From Clostridia bacterium (lineage in GTDB: Bacteria > Bacillota > Clostridia > Christensenellales > Borkfalkiaceae): a stretch of 13,392 nt of DNA. The stretch's first letter is position 1. Each line of letters starts with the position of its first letter. Of this stretch, positions 1,811 through 13,051 are shown one piece after another. Both the position numbers and the translations under genes were made by a program. The DNA lies in NCBI GenBank assembly GCA_017631725.1, contig JAGBSS010000253.1:1-13392 (forward strand), written 5' to 3'. Below the pieces are notes generated by a model, which saw only the letters and a list, made by a program, of their open reading frames with translations, did not search any database and was not told the DNA's origin.

Positions 1811-2418
1811 TGGCATACGAAGCAGAAGTCTCAAATGTAGAAGAATATTATGCAAATTTGCTTATTCTTCAGTATAGAAATAAGCCGAAAGCAAGAGCAA
1901 CGGTCAAACTCGGAGCAGACATATATCTTGGCGATGGGCTTGTTTTTGAACTCAATGACATATTAAACATTGATATTGCCGTAGGCAAACAACTTGATTT
2001 AATTGGGCAAATTCTTGGATGCAACCGAAATATTTACGGGCTTTCAATTGATACCCCGTTTTTCTCTTTTGAAAAAGAAGATGCTTACGGATATTCTGAC
2101 AAAAACACTTTATCTGAAGGCTATTGGAAATCATATTTTAACAGCACAGGTTCAGCCTATGCCCTTCCTGATGACGATTATAGATATTTGTTAAAATTCA
2201 AAGCCGCATATAACCTCAAAAGGGGTTCATGGGGCGAATTAAATGACATGTATGACACATTTTTTGGCAATGAATTGAATATGGTTAATAATAAAGATTT
2301 GTCGGTTACGTTCCAATACAGCCCAAATCTTTCTTTAGCCTTAAAAGTAGCAAAATTCTTAAATTATATAATTCCGCCGATGGGAATAAAATACGAGTTT
2401 GAAGAAATAGAGGAATAA
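1810..2418 (+). CDS. DUF2612 tail protein (baseplate/fibre adaptor, P2 gpI / Mu gp48 position)
   Basis: A protein of 202 residues. The opening YYANLLILQYRNKPKARATV, then DIDIAVGKQLDLIGQILG (residues 56-74), is the signature pattern of DUF2612: a repeat-like helical N-terminus followed by a D.ava G.qLd.iG segment. The C-terminal half holds KFLNYIIPPMGIKYEFEE, the usual closing beta segment. In P2/Mu-like phages the protein after baseplate J closes the baseplate and anchors the tail fibre, and this position fits. The start overlaps the J stop by one base and the gene ends 3 nt before the next. The exact biochemical role is not established for this family; an adaptor role is inferred from gene order. 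Confidence 0.8.
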   Translation: MAYEAEVSNVEEYYANLLILQYRNKPKARATVKLGADIYLGDGLVFELNDILNIDIAVGKQLDLIGQILGCNRNIYGLSIDTPFFSFEKEDAYGYSDKNTLSEGYWKSYFNSTGSAYALPDDDYRYLLKFKAAYNLKRGSWGELNDMYDTFFGNELNMVNNKDLSVTFQYSPNLSLALKVAKFLNYIIPPMGIKYEFEEIEE

Positions 2419-2421
2419 TAA

Positions 2422-3435
2422 ATGACGACACTAACAAGACAACCTTACAAGGTTTTTGCACAAAACGCAAACCTCGACCAATTGGCTGTTTACGGTTCAA
2501 TGAAAACGGGAACACCTGTTTATAGTTCAAGCATTGCAACCTTACAAGGCGAAACGGCATACGGTTTAGGCTGGGCAGATGCGATTTTAGACGACAAAGC
2601 CCCTTATCTTGAAGAAATGAACGGCCTTCAATACAGTTCAAGTTATCAAATCGGGTATATGTTGCAAGAAGGCATTCCCGCTTATGATTCAGCGACAGAA
2701 TACTCAAATACAAGTATTGTAAAAGTAATCAATAATAACGAATTGCAACTTTATCACTCTTTGCAAAATAGCAATGTCGGACATGCATTAAGTGAACCCG
2801 AATGGTGGACACAAGTATATTTCACAAATACTGCTGCTATCGGTGTTCCGCAATTAACACTTGCATTTAATACATTACCCCCCAATTGCGTATGGCTTGA
2901 AGGGGCAACCGTATCAAGAACAACTTATGCAAGCCTTTTTGCGATTTATGGCACAACATACGGCGCTGGCGATGGTTCTACTACCTTCAAACTCCCTGAT
3001 TTACGAAATCGTGTTTTTTGGGGCGGAACAACAGCCGGCTATCTCGGAGCAGGCTTCCCGTCTTTAACAAGTACAACCGCAAGCGCTGGAGCGCACACCC
3101 ACACAAGGGGAACAATGGAAATTGCCGGTAGTTTTTGGGATTTAGCAAGTACAGGCTATCAAGACGGCAATTATATGGGTTCTGCTGATGGTGCATTTTA
3201 TACAAACGCAAGAGGTTCAGGAAACGCAAGCCATAAGGCTTCAAGCGTTACAAAATTAAGTGATGGGCATGATGGTATTGGCTTTAGGGCTTCAAGAAAT
3301 TGGACAGGTTCAACATCATCTTCCGGCGCTCATACTCATGCAGTAACAATTTCTGACGGTTACGGTATTTTGGGCGCAGCAACAACAGTAAGACCGCCAG
3401 CCGTAAAGGTAAGAATATATACGAGGTACGCATAA
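2422..3435 (+). CDS. Tail fibre with phage tail collar domain and HxH motifs
   Basis: A protein of 337 residues. Residues 1-135 are a shaft/attachment region. A tail-collar (MdpB/short-tail-fibre type) domain follows at about 148-200: LPPNCVWLEGATVSRTTYA, then FAIYGTTYGAGDGSTTFKLP and DLRNRVFWG, which is the classic 'G..vsr..Y..Lf..iGt.yG.gdG.ttF.lPdlr.r' pattern. After it come two separate AHTH motifs, near residues 224 and 303, flanked by small Ser/Gly residues. In T4 gp37 and related fibres, HxH clusters bind iron along the trimer axis. The C-terminus closes with RPPAVKVRIYTRYA, the family's usual final strand. This is one of two probable receptor-binding fibres. It follows DUF2612 by 3 nt and abuts its likely chaperone gene. 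Confidence 0.88.
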   Translation: MTTLTRQPYKVFAQNANLDQLAVYGSMKTGTPVYSSSIATLQGETAYGLGWADAILDDKAPYLEEMNGLQYSSSYQIGYMLQEGIPAYDSATEYSNTSIVKVINNNELQLYHSLQNSNVGHALSEPEWWTQVYFTNTAAIGVPQLTLAFNTLPPNCVWLEGATVSRTTYASLFAIYGTTYGAGDGSTTFKLPDLRNRVFWGGTTAGYLGAGFPSLTSTTASAGAHTHTRGTMEIAGSFWDLASTGYQDGNYMGSADGAFYTNARGSGNASHKASSVTKLSDGHDGIGFRASRNWTGSTSSSGAHTHAVTISDGYGILGAATTVRPPAVKVRIYTRYA

Positions 3436-9359: not shown

Positions 9360-9786
9360 ATGCAAAAAATTTGTTATTCAAGAACTCGTTAGCCCTTTAG
9401 TTTATAAAAAATTCGGTGATTTTGCGTGGAAGTTCTTTGATGAAGATGTCTTAAAAGATTTAGACACTATCAGAGAATATCACGGAGCCGGTATAACAAT
9501 AAATAATTGGCATTGGGGCGGAAGTCTTAAACAATGCGGCTTACGCTGCAACAAAGATGATATTGTTGCAAGCAAAAAAGATGTATATTGCTCGGCTCAC
9601 TTAATGGGCAAAGCGTTTGACTTACATTCCAATAATATACCAAAACTATACAAAGACGTTGAATTTTTGATTAAAAACAAACGTCTGAAAAAAATCAGAC
9701 GTATTGAAAGCCCACAAACAACAAAGTACGCTTGGTGTCATATAGATGCTATGCAGACATCAGCAGACATAGAATTCTTCATATAA
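9349..9786 (+). CDS. M15-type peptidase, probable endolysin
   Basis: A protein of 145 residues from the ATG at 9349, which has GGAAG 6 nt upstream; a longer reading from 9268 would overlay the holin candidate. The core is CSAHLMGKAFDLH (81-93), giving the SxHxxGxAxD zinc motif with H84 and D91. AWCHIDA (128-134) supplies the third ligand H131 in a WxHxD motif, and E120 (RIESPQ) is a plausible catalytic Glu. GLRC (64-67) may hold the conserved Arg of the family. M15 peptidases cut peptide cross-links in peptidoglycan (VanY/L-Ala-D-Glu type). There is no signal peptide and no wall-binding domain, as for endolysins of Gram-negative-type hosts released through a holin. It is the last gene before the terminator. 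Confidence 0.75.
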   Translation: MIYKCKKFVIQELVSPLVYKKFGDFAWKFFDEDVLKDLDTIREYHGAGITINNWHWGGSLKQCGLRCNKDDIVASKKDVYCSAHLMGKAFDLHSNNIPKLYKDVEFLIKNKRLKKIRRIESPQTTKYAWCHIDAMQTSADIEFFI

Positions 9787-9857: not shown

Positions 9858-10421
9858 TTATCCAAAATTGAATTGTTTTTTTAGTTTTTTAGCAAAAATC
9901 AAAACATCTTCATCTTCTAAGTCATTATCTGTTAATTTGCAAAGAAATTCTCGGGCTTCTTGCCAGTTTATAATATTCGGTGGTGTAAATATACCTTTTT
10001 TTGATTTAACGTGCCTTGTCGGCGATTGTACGGGCAGATTTTGTTTTTGTTCTTTTTGGGGTTCTTCTTGTTTAGTTACTTGTGCGGTTTTTTGTTCAAC
10101 TTGTTCACTTTTTAATTGCCGAACCATATAAGTAAAATAAGCCCCTTTACATCTTACGTTTGGAGTACCCTTAACATATTCAACGGCTCTCTGTACGGTC
10201 TTAACCCCATAGATGCGACATACCGCTTTCGGACTTCCGACATTCCACGCTTCAAGTTGATTAAGTAAAACCGCATAATCTTTTTTGGGTATCATCTCAT
10301 ACACATTGTGTAAAGATGTGTTAAGAACATGTTGTGTCATGTTATGACATGATGTGTTTTCTTCTTTTCTTCTCTCAAACTGTGTTTGAAGTTGTGCTAA
10401 AGTGTTGCCGATTTGTTCCAT
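9858..10421 (-). CDS. Replication-initiator-like C-terminal module protein (tentative)
   Basis: A protein of 187 residues. Residues 50-104 (AVLLNQLEAWNV, KAVCRIYGVKTVQRAVEYV, then NVRCKGAYFTYMVRQL) follow the pattern 'L...gv....a..li..yg...v..al.yv...p.vrn.aGYfv..L' seen at the C-terminus of plasmid and phage replication initiators. Here the usual N-terminal winged-helix initiator domain is absent. Residues 105-140 are a Gln/Lys/Glu-rich linker and 145-187 a helical tail with an acidic patch (DNDLEDEDVL). AAGGAGAG lies about 7 nt before the ATG. It is leftward, convergent with the lysis operon, and preceded by a long structured leader. It could instead be a regulator or loader acting with a replication protein elsewhere. 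Function is inferred, not shown. Confidence 0.6.
   Translation of the reverse strand: MEQIGNTLAQLQTQFERRKEENTSCHNMTQHVLNTSLHNVYEMIPKKDYAVLLNQLEAWNVGSPKAVCRIYGVKTVQRAVEYVKGTPNVRCKGAYFTYMVRQLKSEQVEQKTAQVTKQEEPQKEQKQNLPVQSPTRHVKSKKGIFTPPNIINWQEAREFLCKLTDNDLEDEDVLIFAKKLKKQFNFG
10335..10352. promoter_or_regulatory. Operator-like inverted repeat inside the start of the 187-residue gene
   Basis: TGTCAT-GTT-ATGACA (10335-10349) is a perfect 6+6 inverted repeat with a 3-bp centre. Within it and the next three bases, TCATGTTATGACATGA (10337-10352) closely resembles TCATGTTAAGGGCATGA in the promoter spacer at 10584-10600 (same arms and same TCATGTTA opening, one base less in the middle). Could be a shared protein-binding site. 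Confidence 0.4.
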
Positions 10422-10454
10422 TTTCTACTCTCCTTATTTTTTTGCATAAAAAAC

Positions 10455-10483
10455 TTGACCTTATCGGCGAAACCTGATAGAAT
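10455..10483 (+). promoter_or_regulatory. Promoter P1 (antisense to the leader), sigma-70 type with extended -10
   Basis: TTGACC (10455-10460), 17-bp spacer, TAGAAT (10478-10483), preceded by TGA giving an extended -10 (TGnTAGAAT). Both boxes match the consensus at 5 of 6 positions. The expected start is G10490 or A10491. The only thing immediately downstream is the hairpin terminator at 10503. Confidence 0.75.
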
Positions 10484-10489
10484 ATTCTT

Positions 10490-10535
10490 GAAAAATGATT
10501 TGATAGTTTTTGGTTCGCCAAAGGCTATTTTTTTA
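10490..10535 (+). ncRNA. Candidate short antisense RNA (about 45 nt)
   Basis: It would run from the predicted P1 start to the end of the T tract at 10534. It consists of a 13-nt unstructured 5' end and one 11-bp hairpin with a UUCG loop. It lies within, and is complementary to, the leader of the leftward 187-residue gene, and its loop would face the CGAA loop of leader hairpin I. It contains ATG ATT TGA only, so it codes for nothing sensible. An alternative view is that P1 and its terminator form an attenuator for the HTH-TM gene downstream. Confidence 0.5.
10503..10534 (+). terminator. Intrinsic terminator with UUCG tetraloop
   Basis: ATAGTTTTTGG (10503-10513) pairs along its full length with CCAAAGGCTAT (10518-10528), two pairs being G-U, around a UUCG loop, followed by T6 (10529-10534). 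The position only about 20 bp after the -10 box of P1 makes a very short transcription unit. Confidence 0.85.
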
Positions 10536-10577
10536 TATTCAGTTTTTGAGCGTTATTGGCATGCCGTTTTTTTGCTC

Positions 10578-10606
10578 TTGACTTCATGTTAAGGGCATGA
10601 TATCTT
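10578..10606 (+). promoter_or_regulatory. Promoter P2 for the HTH-TM gene
   Basis: TTGACT (10578-10583), 17-bp spacer, TATCTT (10601-10606) with a TGA extended -10. The start is expected near 10613, giving a leader of about 58 nt to the ATG at 10671. Its spacer contains TCATG...CATGA arms (10584-10588 and 10596-10600), and the DNA is shared with the opposing promoter P3. Confidence 0.7.
10584..10600. promoter_or_regulatory. Operator-like inverted repeat in the P2/P3 overlap
   Basis: TCATG-TTAAGGG-CATGA lies in the P2 spacer and across the -10 box of P3. A protein bound here would block both promoters. A near-identical sequence occurs at 10337-10352. The nearby HTH protein and the 187-residue protein are the obvious candidates to bind, but nothing in the sequence proves it. 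Confidence 0.4.
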
Positions 10607-10615
10607 TTCTGTCAA
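10586..10615 (-). promoter_or_regulatory. Promoter P3 for the 187-residue gene, face to face with P2
   Basis: On the - strand TTGACA (10615-10610, perfect consensus), 18-bp spacer, TAACAT (10591-10586, 4 of 6). The -35 boxes of P2 and P3 are arms of an inverted repeat CTTGAC...GTCAAG (10577-10582 and 10611-10616), so each promoter's -10 lies between the two -35 boxes. Only one polymerase can occupy the site at a time. Confidence 0.55.
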
Positions 10616-10670
10616 GTATGGTTATTTTACTAATTTTGCGGTAAGTGAAAGTAAATTAAGGGGTTAATGA

Positions 10671-11288
10671 ATGGAAAAAGAGAAGTTCAAAGTTGCTGAT
10701 TTTTCAGCGTTAATCGGTTGTTCTCAAAAGACGGTTTATTCACTAATAGATAAGGGTGAGTTAAAAACCGTAAATGAAACTTCAAAAGGACGTAAAATTG
10801 TCCTTGTTCTTGCTACTGATGCAGAAATAAAAGAACTTCAAAAAATTTACGGTAAAAATCTTGTAAATGAAGTAAATTGTAAAGAAAATGAAACACAATA
10901 TATTGAAACTGAAAGTAAAAACCTTAACTATTCTATTGAAACACCTACTTTCTTTGAAAAGGTAATTGAACTGCAAAATACTTTCAATGAACAGATAATG
11001 AAATACAATGACGAGTTAATTAAATTCAAAAGCCAAGTTCCACTTTTAGAGGATAGACAGGGGTTGTATCTGCAACAAATAAAAGATTTTGAAGCAGAAA
11101 ATAACACCTTAAAAAAGGATAACAACATATTATTAAAATGGTTAATAACAGTCATTATCCTTGCTATTTTGATTATTGCTGCACTTGGTGTTGCACTTGC
11201 TTTTTACTATAATAAACCCCCGAAAGTCATAGAAACAGAAAAAGTGGTTACCGTTGAAAAGCCGGTGTATGTTAAGGGGAAAAGGTAG
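10671..11288 (+). CDS. HTH - coiled coil - C-terminal membrane anchor protein
   Basis: A protein of 205 residues with three parts. Residues 6-46 (FKVADFSALIGCSQKTVYSL, then a K-GRKIVLVL wing-like strand) are an excisionase/MerR-type helix-turn-helix with the 'IGCSQKTVYSLIDKGEL' recognition pattern. Residues 92-155 are charged and heptad-like, predicted coiled coil. Residues 157-180 (WLITVIILAILIIAALGVAL and following) are one strong transmembrane helix, followed by a 24-residue Lys/Val/Pro tail. The HTH should be cytoplasmic and the tail outside. AAGGGG lies 7 nt before the ATG at 10671 (a second ATG at 10667 is out of frame). A DNA-binding head on a membrane anchor suggests tethering of phage or plasmid DNA, or a membrane-bound regulator. 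I recognise no named family. Promoter P2 serves it. Confidence 0.75.
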   Translation: MEKEKFKVADFSALIGCSQKTVYSLIDKGELKTVNETSKGRKIVLVLATDAEIKELQKIYGKNLVNEVNCKENETQYIETESKNLNYSIETPTFFEKVIELQNTFNEQIMKYNDELIKFKSQVPLLEDRQGLYLQQIKDFEAENNTLKKDNNILLKWLITVIILAILIIAALGVALAFYYNKPPKVIETEKVVTVEKPVYVKGKR

Positions 11289-12475: not shown

Positions 12476-12591
12476 TGTAATAACCATTCAAGCATGTTTA
12501 TAGCAACCTTAATTCCGTCATTATAAAATGTATAATATAAATCACCTTGTAATTTTTTGAGTTTTTCCCTTATTTCTTCTTCACTTCTCAT
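12460..12591 (-). CDS. 43-residue phage protein, easily missed
   Basis: ATG at 12591 with AAAGGAG 7 nt upstream, 43 codons, stop TGA overlapping the next ATG. The protein opens MRSEEEIREKLKKLQGDLYY and ends INMLEWLLQEDNQ. The 'R(T/S)EEEIR.kl..l...l........ki..LeWll' pattern recurs in short phage proteins of unknown function; both ends are likely helices. It overlaps the end of the methyltransferase gene by 11 nt, and without it there would be an unexplained 118-bp gap in an operon that otherwise has none that long. I am fairly sure it is real. Confidence 0.75.
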   Translation of the reverse strand: MRSEEEIREKLKKLQGDLYYTFYNDGIKVAINMLEWLLQEDNQ

Positions 12592-13051
12592 CTGTTTGCT
12601 CCTTTATAAATACTAAAAAATATGTTTTACTTCGTTTATTTCCAAATATTGGCTTACAATAAAAACATTTTAAAACTTCAGACAACTTTATTTGTTCTTC
12701 ATTCCATTTAAAAATTAGTGTTCCGTTTGGTTTTAGAACACGCATACATTCATTAAATCCTTGCTTTAATTCAGCTTGCCAATTTTCAGGAAGTCGGCCA
12801 TACTTTTTTGCAAGCCAAGATTTTTCCCCTGCTCGTTTTAAATGCGGTGGGTCAAATACCACCATATAGAAAGAATTATCCGCAAAGGGGATATTTTTAA
12901 AGTCGGCCACAATATCGGGTTTAATTTCTAAAACTCGGCCATCGCACAAAACGTCTGTTAATTCTCTTTTATCCATAAAACAAACATTGGGATTATTTTT
13001 GTCAAAATAAAACATTTTTGAACCGCAACAAACATCTAATATAGGCTTCAT
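12581..13051 (-). CDS. SAM-dependent DNA methyltransferase-type protein (orphan, phage family)
   Basis: A protein of 156 residues. ILDVCCGSKMFYFDK (4-18) is the SAM-binding motif I in the CCGS(R/K)MF form typical of a small phage methyltransferase family. FMDKRE (25-30) gives the acidic residue after strand 2, DIVADF (46-51) follows, and VVFDPPHL (64-71) is the catalytic DPPH/DPPY-type motif of amino-methyltransferases. ECMRVLKPNGTLIFKWNEEQ (101-120) is strand 5 with its usual 'vLkpgG.li.kw'. Amino-methyltransferases of this type modify adenine N6 or cytosine N4, or guard phage DNA. The target is unknown, and no specificity domain or partner nuclease is visible here. It follows the 61-residue gene by one base, with GAGGGA just upstream. 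Confidence 0.88.
   Translation of the reverse strand: MKPILDVCCGSKMFYFDKNNPNVCFMDKRELTDVLCDGRVLEIKPDIVADFKNIPFADNSFYMVVFDPPHLKRAGEKSWLAKKYGRLPENWQAELKQGFNECMRVLKPNGTLIFKWNEEQIKLSEVLKCFYCKPIFGNKRSKTYFLVFIKEQTDEK

Follow-up and report, generated by a model that had tools for sequence, protein, structure and literature searches.

What does the short region between the two divergent genes ORF187 and ORF205 control, and what kind of element carries it? The window (the whole stretch of DNA that was analyzed, 13,392 nucleotides) is the complete contig C17 of a 1.09-Mb genome rated 80% complete. Rightward tail and lysis genes, including those for a baseplate-like protein and an endolysin match, reach up to position 9786 and are followed by the leftward ORF187, the intergenic region, the rightward ORF205, and a leftward block that includes a methyltransferase gene. 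The latter, at 12581-13051, is a DNA methyltransferase-like gene (phrog_954, 3.1e-80). A preliminary description of this DNA had proposed that a short antisense RNA opposes the leader of a replication-like gene, here ORF187.

The near-consensus promoter with an extended -10 box that had been claimed on the plus strand (P1) was found at its place. Such a promoter alone is ordinary, as 47 sites of this kind occur in the window vs. 44.7 expected. Together with the hairpin and the T6 run, P1 formed the sole promoter-terminator pair of its kind on both strands of the 13.4-kb window, under a rule demanding a promoter of at least 9/12 and, within 10-50 nt, a hairpin (at least 8 pairs, -8 kcal/mol or lower) with a T-run. 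Dinucleotide shuffles of the intergenic region gave such a pair in 0/200 cases, and in 3/200 under the looser final rule given below. The hairpin had been called a perfect 11-bp UUCG hairpin; its position, loop, and T6 were as stated, but the 11-bp core (10503-10513 with 10518-10528, loop TTCG) is unbroken only when two G-U pairs are counted. The folded form of 10502-10529 had 12 pairs, three of them G-U, and a predicted stability of -11.6 kcal/mol on the plus strand vs. -5.7 on the mRNA strand. With a start assumed 7 nt after the -10 box, the predicted RNA runs from 10490 to about 10535 (45 nt), and its complementarity to the leader of the leftward gene holds on sequence. Rfam yielded 0 matches across the window, and the five matches in 10400-10700 were far under the gathering scores (best E 0.011). 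Additionally, P2 and the candidate promoter P3 overlap on opposite strands.

Table 1. Positions of the control region features in the window
Feature	Position	Strand	Basis
ORF187, controlled gene, putative replication protein	9858..10421	-	slot and relatives
Three CATG repeats, 10 bp apart, possible iterons	10328..10351		sequence; 5' part of ORF187
Shine-Dalgarno AAGGAG of ORF187	10430..10435	-	sequence
P1, antisense RNA promoter, TTGACC-17-TAGAAT, TG before -10 (extended -10)	10455..10483	+	sequence and consensus scan
Element D of leader mRNA, inside P1 spacer; core GGUUUCGCC pairs with GGCGAACC of H	10461..10477	-	H:D duplex
Predicted antisense RNA, about 45 nt: 12-nt 5' tail, terminator hairpin, U tail	10490..10535	+	start inferred
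Hairpin and intrinsic terminator, UUCG loop	10502..10529	+	complement on - strand is leader target H
P3, candidate promoter of ORF205	10578..10606	+	consensus scan, window only
P2, promoter of leftward gene, TTGACA-18-TAACAT	10586..10615	-	consensus scan
ORF205: N-terminal HTH, C-terminal hydrophobic helix, middle possibly coiled coil	10671..11288	+	Par/RocS-like layout

Related loci were collected through both genes. The few relatives of ORF187 with DNA were L003/L004 (52%; L004 was handled as a copy of L003), L005 (43%), and L006 (31% to the A2 query), and the ORF205 searches led to Dulem virus 31 (L009), L012-L015, and L017-L019 in genomes, two of the latter genomes being titled Candidatus Gastranaerophilales. 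Of 383 genomes searched in the family of L017's genome, 10 contained a match. Among the 11 places of this search, L032, L033, and L034 repeat L017, L019, and L018, and L035, L036, and L042 (two of them in one genome) are new cases with the same divergent layout; L038-L041 (E 1.5e-4 to 6.8e-4) and L037, which has a different arrangement, were left out of the locus count. No further relatives of ORF187 were found in viral contigs, phages, and genome contigs (A1 query) or in additional genomes of the family (200) and of the phylum (397). The A3 and ORF205 queries gave nothing useful against viral contigs, and the L005, L006, and P0038 proteins found none in phages beyond Dulem virus 31, nor L006 any in plasmids.

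The device was kept in 15/15 related loci under the final rule, above two unrelated kinds of leftward gene. On the strand opposite the leftward gene, this rule demands TTG[AC]NN, a 17-bp spacer, T[AT]NNNT, and then a hairpin with a T-run, with the -35 box placed 32-40 nt from the leftward start codon; it gave 8 hits in 3000 shuffles. The first 11 loci had served to fit this rule, and the threshold for the hairpin was loosened after a stricter rule had given 1/4 of the added loci. The stricter rule found 10/11 in the first set (L013 fails on the -10 box), with 5 hits in 2400 shuffles in a run that included L018, whose rep-like gene was out of range. In the first set, the promoter (P1 picked by eye), the 17-bp spacing, the position, and the hairpin were kept in 11/11 loci while the sequences change, and the predicted antisense RNAs are 42-74 nt long. 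TG precedes the -10 box in 12/15 loci. The hairpin was more stable as antisense RNA than as mRNA in all 15 loci, a comparison that leans toward the antisense strand in that the hairpin borders were chosen on it; the difference arises largely because G-U pairs turn into A-C on the mRNA strand.

These results support the antisense reading, as the divergent-pair relatives keep promoter, spacing, position, and hairpin, and the leader holds a locus-specific partner for the target. A relative that keeps the gene and has lost both promoter and hairpin was looked for, and none was seen among the 15 loci. An antisense RNA gene opposite the leftward leader is very probably present. The earlier suggestion of a YUNR loop was correct by letters in the window, but the pattern is not conserved: the antisense loop has it in 4/11 loci (7/11 counting the closing pair), and YUNR was rejected as a conserved pairing enhancer. 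The window and L003 have nearly the same hairpin at a protein identity of about 52%, whereas incompatibility loops diverge fast; this counts against the copy-control reading given below. L034 (L018) holds about 900 bp between the divergent genes (roughly 2256-3170), with a repeated unit of about 50 bp and other repeats, vs. about 230-380 bp in the 14 other loci; the antisense device persists there beside the rep-like gene despite the repeats.

A second element of the leader, newly noted here, is D, the complement of the P1 spacer. The H:D duplex in the window was calculated at -14.5 kcal/mol. The letters of H and D vary among loci yet match inside each locus, as seen by eye in GGCGAAC/GUUCGCC (L003), UUGAGGU/ACCUCAA (L014), CUUUUGCAGU/ACUGCAAAAG (L017), and CGGUAGAA/UUCUACCG (L013). 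Over 10 loci, with P1 positions set by eye and L003 dropped as a near copy of the window, the own-locus H:D sum was -114.8 kcal/mol vs. -58.7 +/- 8.8 in permutations, and 0/200000 were as good. In the full matrix, the own D was top for its H in 7/11 rows (not in L006, L015, L012, and L013) and the own H was top for its D in 10/11 columns (not in L014). The best downstream 17-mer partner of H lay within -3 to +7 nt of D in 11/11 loci of the first set and 14/15 overall, the exception being L034 (18 nt off D), and it was stronger than the best upstream 17-mer partner in 11/11. D ends 25-30 nt upstream of the Shine-Dalgarno sequence in the 11 first-set loci. Because H finds its best partner at D and matches the D of its own locus, D is a candidate cis competitor of the antisense RNA, and the H:D pair resembles, in its logic, the ON arm of the pSK41/pSA564 switch. 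These results suggest that the rep-like gene is likely to be controlled through competition for H.

The same data bear on two explanations without a trans-acting RNA. P1 might work mostly in cis, by polymerase collision with P2 transcription or by a hairpin that insulates ORF205, with the short RNA as a by-product. The two promoters face each other over about 100 bp, so interference is expected, and the hairpin lies between P1 and ORF205; however, this leaves unexplained both the H:D complementarity specific to each locus and the finding that H has its best partner at D, which makes a mainly cis-acting P1 very unlikely. Still less probable is that H and D form an inverted DNA repeat with no RNA role, i.e., an operator or cruciform at the antisense promoter that is bound by ORF187 or ORF205. 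The P1 spacer, where D is located, is a usual place for an operator, but a protein site would keep its letters, whereas here the letters differ between loci and the within-locus match is kept; the greater hairpin stability on one strand in 15/15 loci also argues against it.

The ORF187 family has 37 listed proteins, of which the first is the window's own, and it looks mosaic in alignment A1, with closely similar C-terminal thirds and clearly different middles (P0025, P0027, and P0030 vs. the window). No family match was obtained for ORF187 at E <= 0.01, nor any PHROGs match for the five ORF187-type genes scanned, and a search of solved structures gave insignificant hits only. RepA_N matched neither ORF187 and three ORF187-type relatives nor the Dulem virus 31 gene. 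Leftward genes of the ORF187 type occupy six loci (the window, L003, L005, L006, L015, and L019), and winged-helix genes unrelated to ORF187 occupy nine (L009, L012, L013, L014, L017, L034, L035, L036, and L042). The winged-helix gene of Dulem virus 31, P0038, matched Pfam HTH_36 (5.6e-14), with DnaD_N below cut-off. All five winged-helix genes tested matched PHROG replication initiation families, O-like or DnaD-like (best E 7.5e-9 to 1e-14); the remaining four of the nine were assigned by reading their translations. CATG occurs 3, 4, 6, 8, 9, and 7 times in the first 150 nt of the six ORF187-type genes vs. 0, 1, 1, 2, 1, and 1 times in the rest, a count that is not significant in the window alone (56/500 shuffles reach 3). 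Since there is no family match, we infer a replication role of ORF187 from its slot, the CATG repeats, and the presence of initiator-like genes at this position in other loci. ORF187 itself is without a recognizable replication domain, which counts against the replicon reading given below. A CATG-centered palindrome, seen by eye in the P2 spacers of several loci, is a likely operator.

The leftward gene could instead be a lysis-lysogeny or early-late regulator, with a real and repressing RNA of the phage immunity type. Small RNAs confer phage immunity in P4 and P1 (c4), and this explanation would fit the absence of an initiator match in ORF187 and five relatives, the place of the cassette between the late genes and the leftward block, and the separate DnaD-like helicase loader of Dulem virus 31. 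On the other hand, the same device stands above replication-initiation matches in 5/5 tested winged-helix loci, ORF187-type genes have CATG repeats concentrated toward the 5' end, and Dulem virus 31 encodes a CI-like repressor elsewhere. We consider a regulator with an immunity RNA unlikely, though less so than the two explanations above.

The best reading, which we consider fairly likely, is that a family of phage-plasmids carries a plasmid-style replicon whose copy number is under antisense control. The window would contain the control region of such a plasmid-type replicon, carried by a tailed phage. P2 would drive the leftward rep-like mRNA, whose leader would measure about 158 nt, and P1 would drive the short antisense RNA, with a hairpin complementary to element H of the leader. 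Were H still free once transcription passes D, the H:D pair would form and the mRNA would stay translatable (ON). Earlier capture of H by the antisense RNA would leave D free and, in several loci, able to pair with and close the ribosome-binding site (OFF). A higher copy number would yield more antisense RNA, so that replication would be kept at low copy number.

The OFF half varied among the loci. The complementarity of D to the ribosome site of its own locus was above cross-locus chance (163, 704, 56, and 297 of 20000 permutations for four choices of the compared segments), with strong pairing in L009 (-16.2), L006 (-14.5), and L005 (-13.5) and weak pairing in the window (-4.7 kcal/mol). In the window fold with the antisense target blocked, exposure was hardly altered (Shine-Dalgarno 0.86 to 0.91, AUG 0.40 to 0.35). 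The predicted AUG exposure on antisense binding dropped in L005 (0.55 to 0.02), L015 (0.77 to 0.19), L019 (0.74 to 0.05), and L013 (0.16 to 0), shifted by at most 0.09 in six other loci including the window, and rose in L003 (0.46 to 0.64). Uniform closure of the Shine-Dalgarno sequence and AUG was therefore not predicted by the folds in every locus, and the result is partial. As the complementarity exceeds chance across the loci but is weak in the window, the OFF half is plausible for the family rather than for the window in particular, and a full ON/OFF switch with ribosome-site closure has an even chance of being correct.

Two other modes of control were rejected. Transcription attenuation of the pT181/pIP501 type was discarded for the window, in which no terminator-like site was present on the minus strand at 10420-10480. 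A leader peptide of the repY/tap type was discarded as a family feature. An ORF that begins downstream of the inferred P2 start, spans 6 codons or more, and extends into H was present with an ATG start in 2/14 leaders (L005 and L013) and with any start in 4/14 (also L006 and L035), but not in the window; L034, for which P2 was not set, was excluded, and shuffled leaders yielded such ORFs equally often or more in most leaders. The boxes corresponding to P2 in the 11 first-set leaders, TTGAC-17/18-T, were picked by eye. A frame that stops at the hairpin is common to the window and L003, and an ORF of 30 residues is annotated at this place in Dulem virus 31, but in all three the ATG overlaps the P2 -10 box.

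Antisense control of copy number is best known from plasmids of Enterobacteria and Firmicutes. The closest comparison is with the leaders of pSA564 and pSK41. Their upstream, middle, and downstream elements form mutually exclusive ON and OFF pairings, and it is the upstream element that the antisense RNA binds (PMC8129170, PMC5703833). In the staphylococcal RepA_N plasmids pSK41, pSK1, and pSA564, the antisense RNA is made inside the rep leader and the target pairs with either the antisense RNA or the middle element, as proposed here (PMC8129170, PMC5703833). The middle element of pSK41/pSA564 can instead close the ribosome site, the counterpart of which is weak in the window, and the pSK41 group has Rep boxes within rep and an initiator structurally similar to DnaD. 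In this group, pPR9 has an HTH of pfam13730, which is also the match of the Dulem virus 31 gene, and the pSA564 RNA1 loop is CGCCAA where the loop region of the window reads UUCGCCAA. Unlike in pSK41/pSA564, where the RNA is about 83 nt long with two hairpins, the RNA here is predicted at 42-74 nt with one hairpin. Further differences are the position of the middle element in the antisense promoter spacer, the lack of a RepA_N match, and the tailed-phage carrier; the terminator-like OFF hairpin of those plasmids was not found in the window.

The predicted RNA also resembles RNAII of pMV158, a 48-nt RNA with an unpaired 5' tail, one terminator hairpin, and a U tail that blocks translation of the initiator (PMC4485353). 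The target of RNAII lies directly before repB, whereas the target here lies about 80 nt upstream of the start codon and has the H:D match. CopG and Rep_2/RepB had no Pfam match among eight window proteins, including ORF187 and ORF205. In IncI-type plasmids (ColIb-P9, IncB, and IncK), the target loop pairs with the antisense RNA or with a downstream rep-activating element, forming a pseudoknot. The GGCG/CGCC letters of RNAI/SLI in the IncI complex (PMC10724649) recur in the window and L003. Unlike the IncI complex, no conserved leader peptide was found, other loci use other letters, and the relation of D to the ribosome site differs.

In pSK1, the gene for Par lies beside and divergent from rep. 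The layout of ORF205 resembles that of pSK1 Par, RocS, and RacA, which comprise an N-terminal HTH, a middle part, and a C-terminal membrane element (RocS, probably Par; PMC11500499). ORF205 differs in lacking DUF536, which matched neither ORF205 nor nine homologues, and in its C-terminus, a hydrophobic helix in place of an amphipathic one of the MinD type. Pfam matches of the HTH or MerR type were found, below cut-off only, in ORF205 (HTH_17, E 7.6e-5, below the curated cut-off) and 4/9 homologues, and a hydrophobic C-terminal segment was seen by eye in the homologues. We infer that ORF205 probably positions or partitions the molecule. At L037, also from the family of L017's genome, a short HTH protein whose tail is rich in helices adjoins what looks by eye like a Rep_3-type initiator (1165-1611 and 1863-2672); this pairing would fit a partition role for ORF205-like proteins.

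With regard to the carrier, no tyrosine integrase (Phage_integrase, PF00589) was found in 9 virus records, no PF07508 in 5, and no rve in 8; three virus records look circular and the others may be fragments. Two of the six contigs compared carry direct overlaps of 127 and 113 bp at their ends, and Dulem virus 31, with its CI-like repressor, is annotated as circular. Extrachromosomal mycobacteriophages use RepA or RNA-based origins (PMC7157519). As in the RepA mycobacteriophages, the replication cassette lies downstream of the virion genes; in those phages, it replaces an integrase, and the direction of repA is opposite to that of the virion genes (PMC7157519). Those phages have parABS, whereas the ParA-type AAA_31 was found in 0/5 records here. 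A plasmid-like prophage is reasonably likely.

If this is true, a small RNA from the opposite strand would act as a copy-number brake that lets gut phages persist in the host cell like plasmids, by antisense control reduced to a single hairpin, in phages without a detected integrase, and over two unrelated genes. It seems about as probable as its contrary that gut phages, some of them in genomes of non-photosynthetic Cyanobacteria (Gastranaerophilales), live as low-copy plasmids under such a minimal antisense switch, in which one 17-bp stretch is both the antisense promoter spacer and the competing mRNA arm and the module is kept while the gene is swapped between two unrelated initiator types. 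The signature, a promoter with a 17-bp spacer followed by a terminator hairpin matching that spacer, lends itself to searches of any phage genome, and the number of gut phages living as plasmids is thus testable from sequence. No published description of the system was found among the matches listed for antisense control in phage-plasmids, for Gastranaerophilales prophages or plasmids, and for phage-plasmids with Cyanobacteria or rumen, in a search outside which most subscription papers and preprints lie. Additionally, the record of Dulem virus 31 (PP511318.1) is filed under Microviridae and has terminase, portal, tail sheath, and tape measure genes; it is apparently a misplaced tailed phage.
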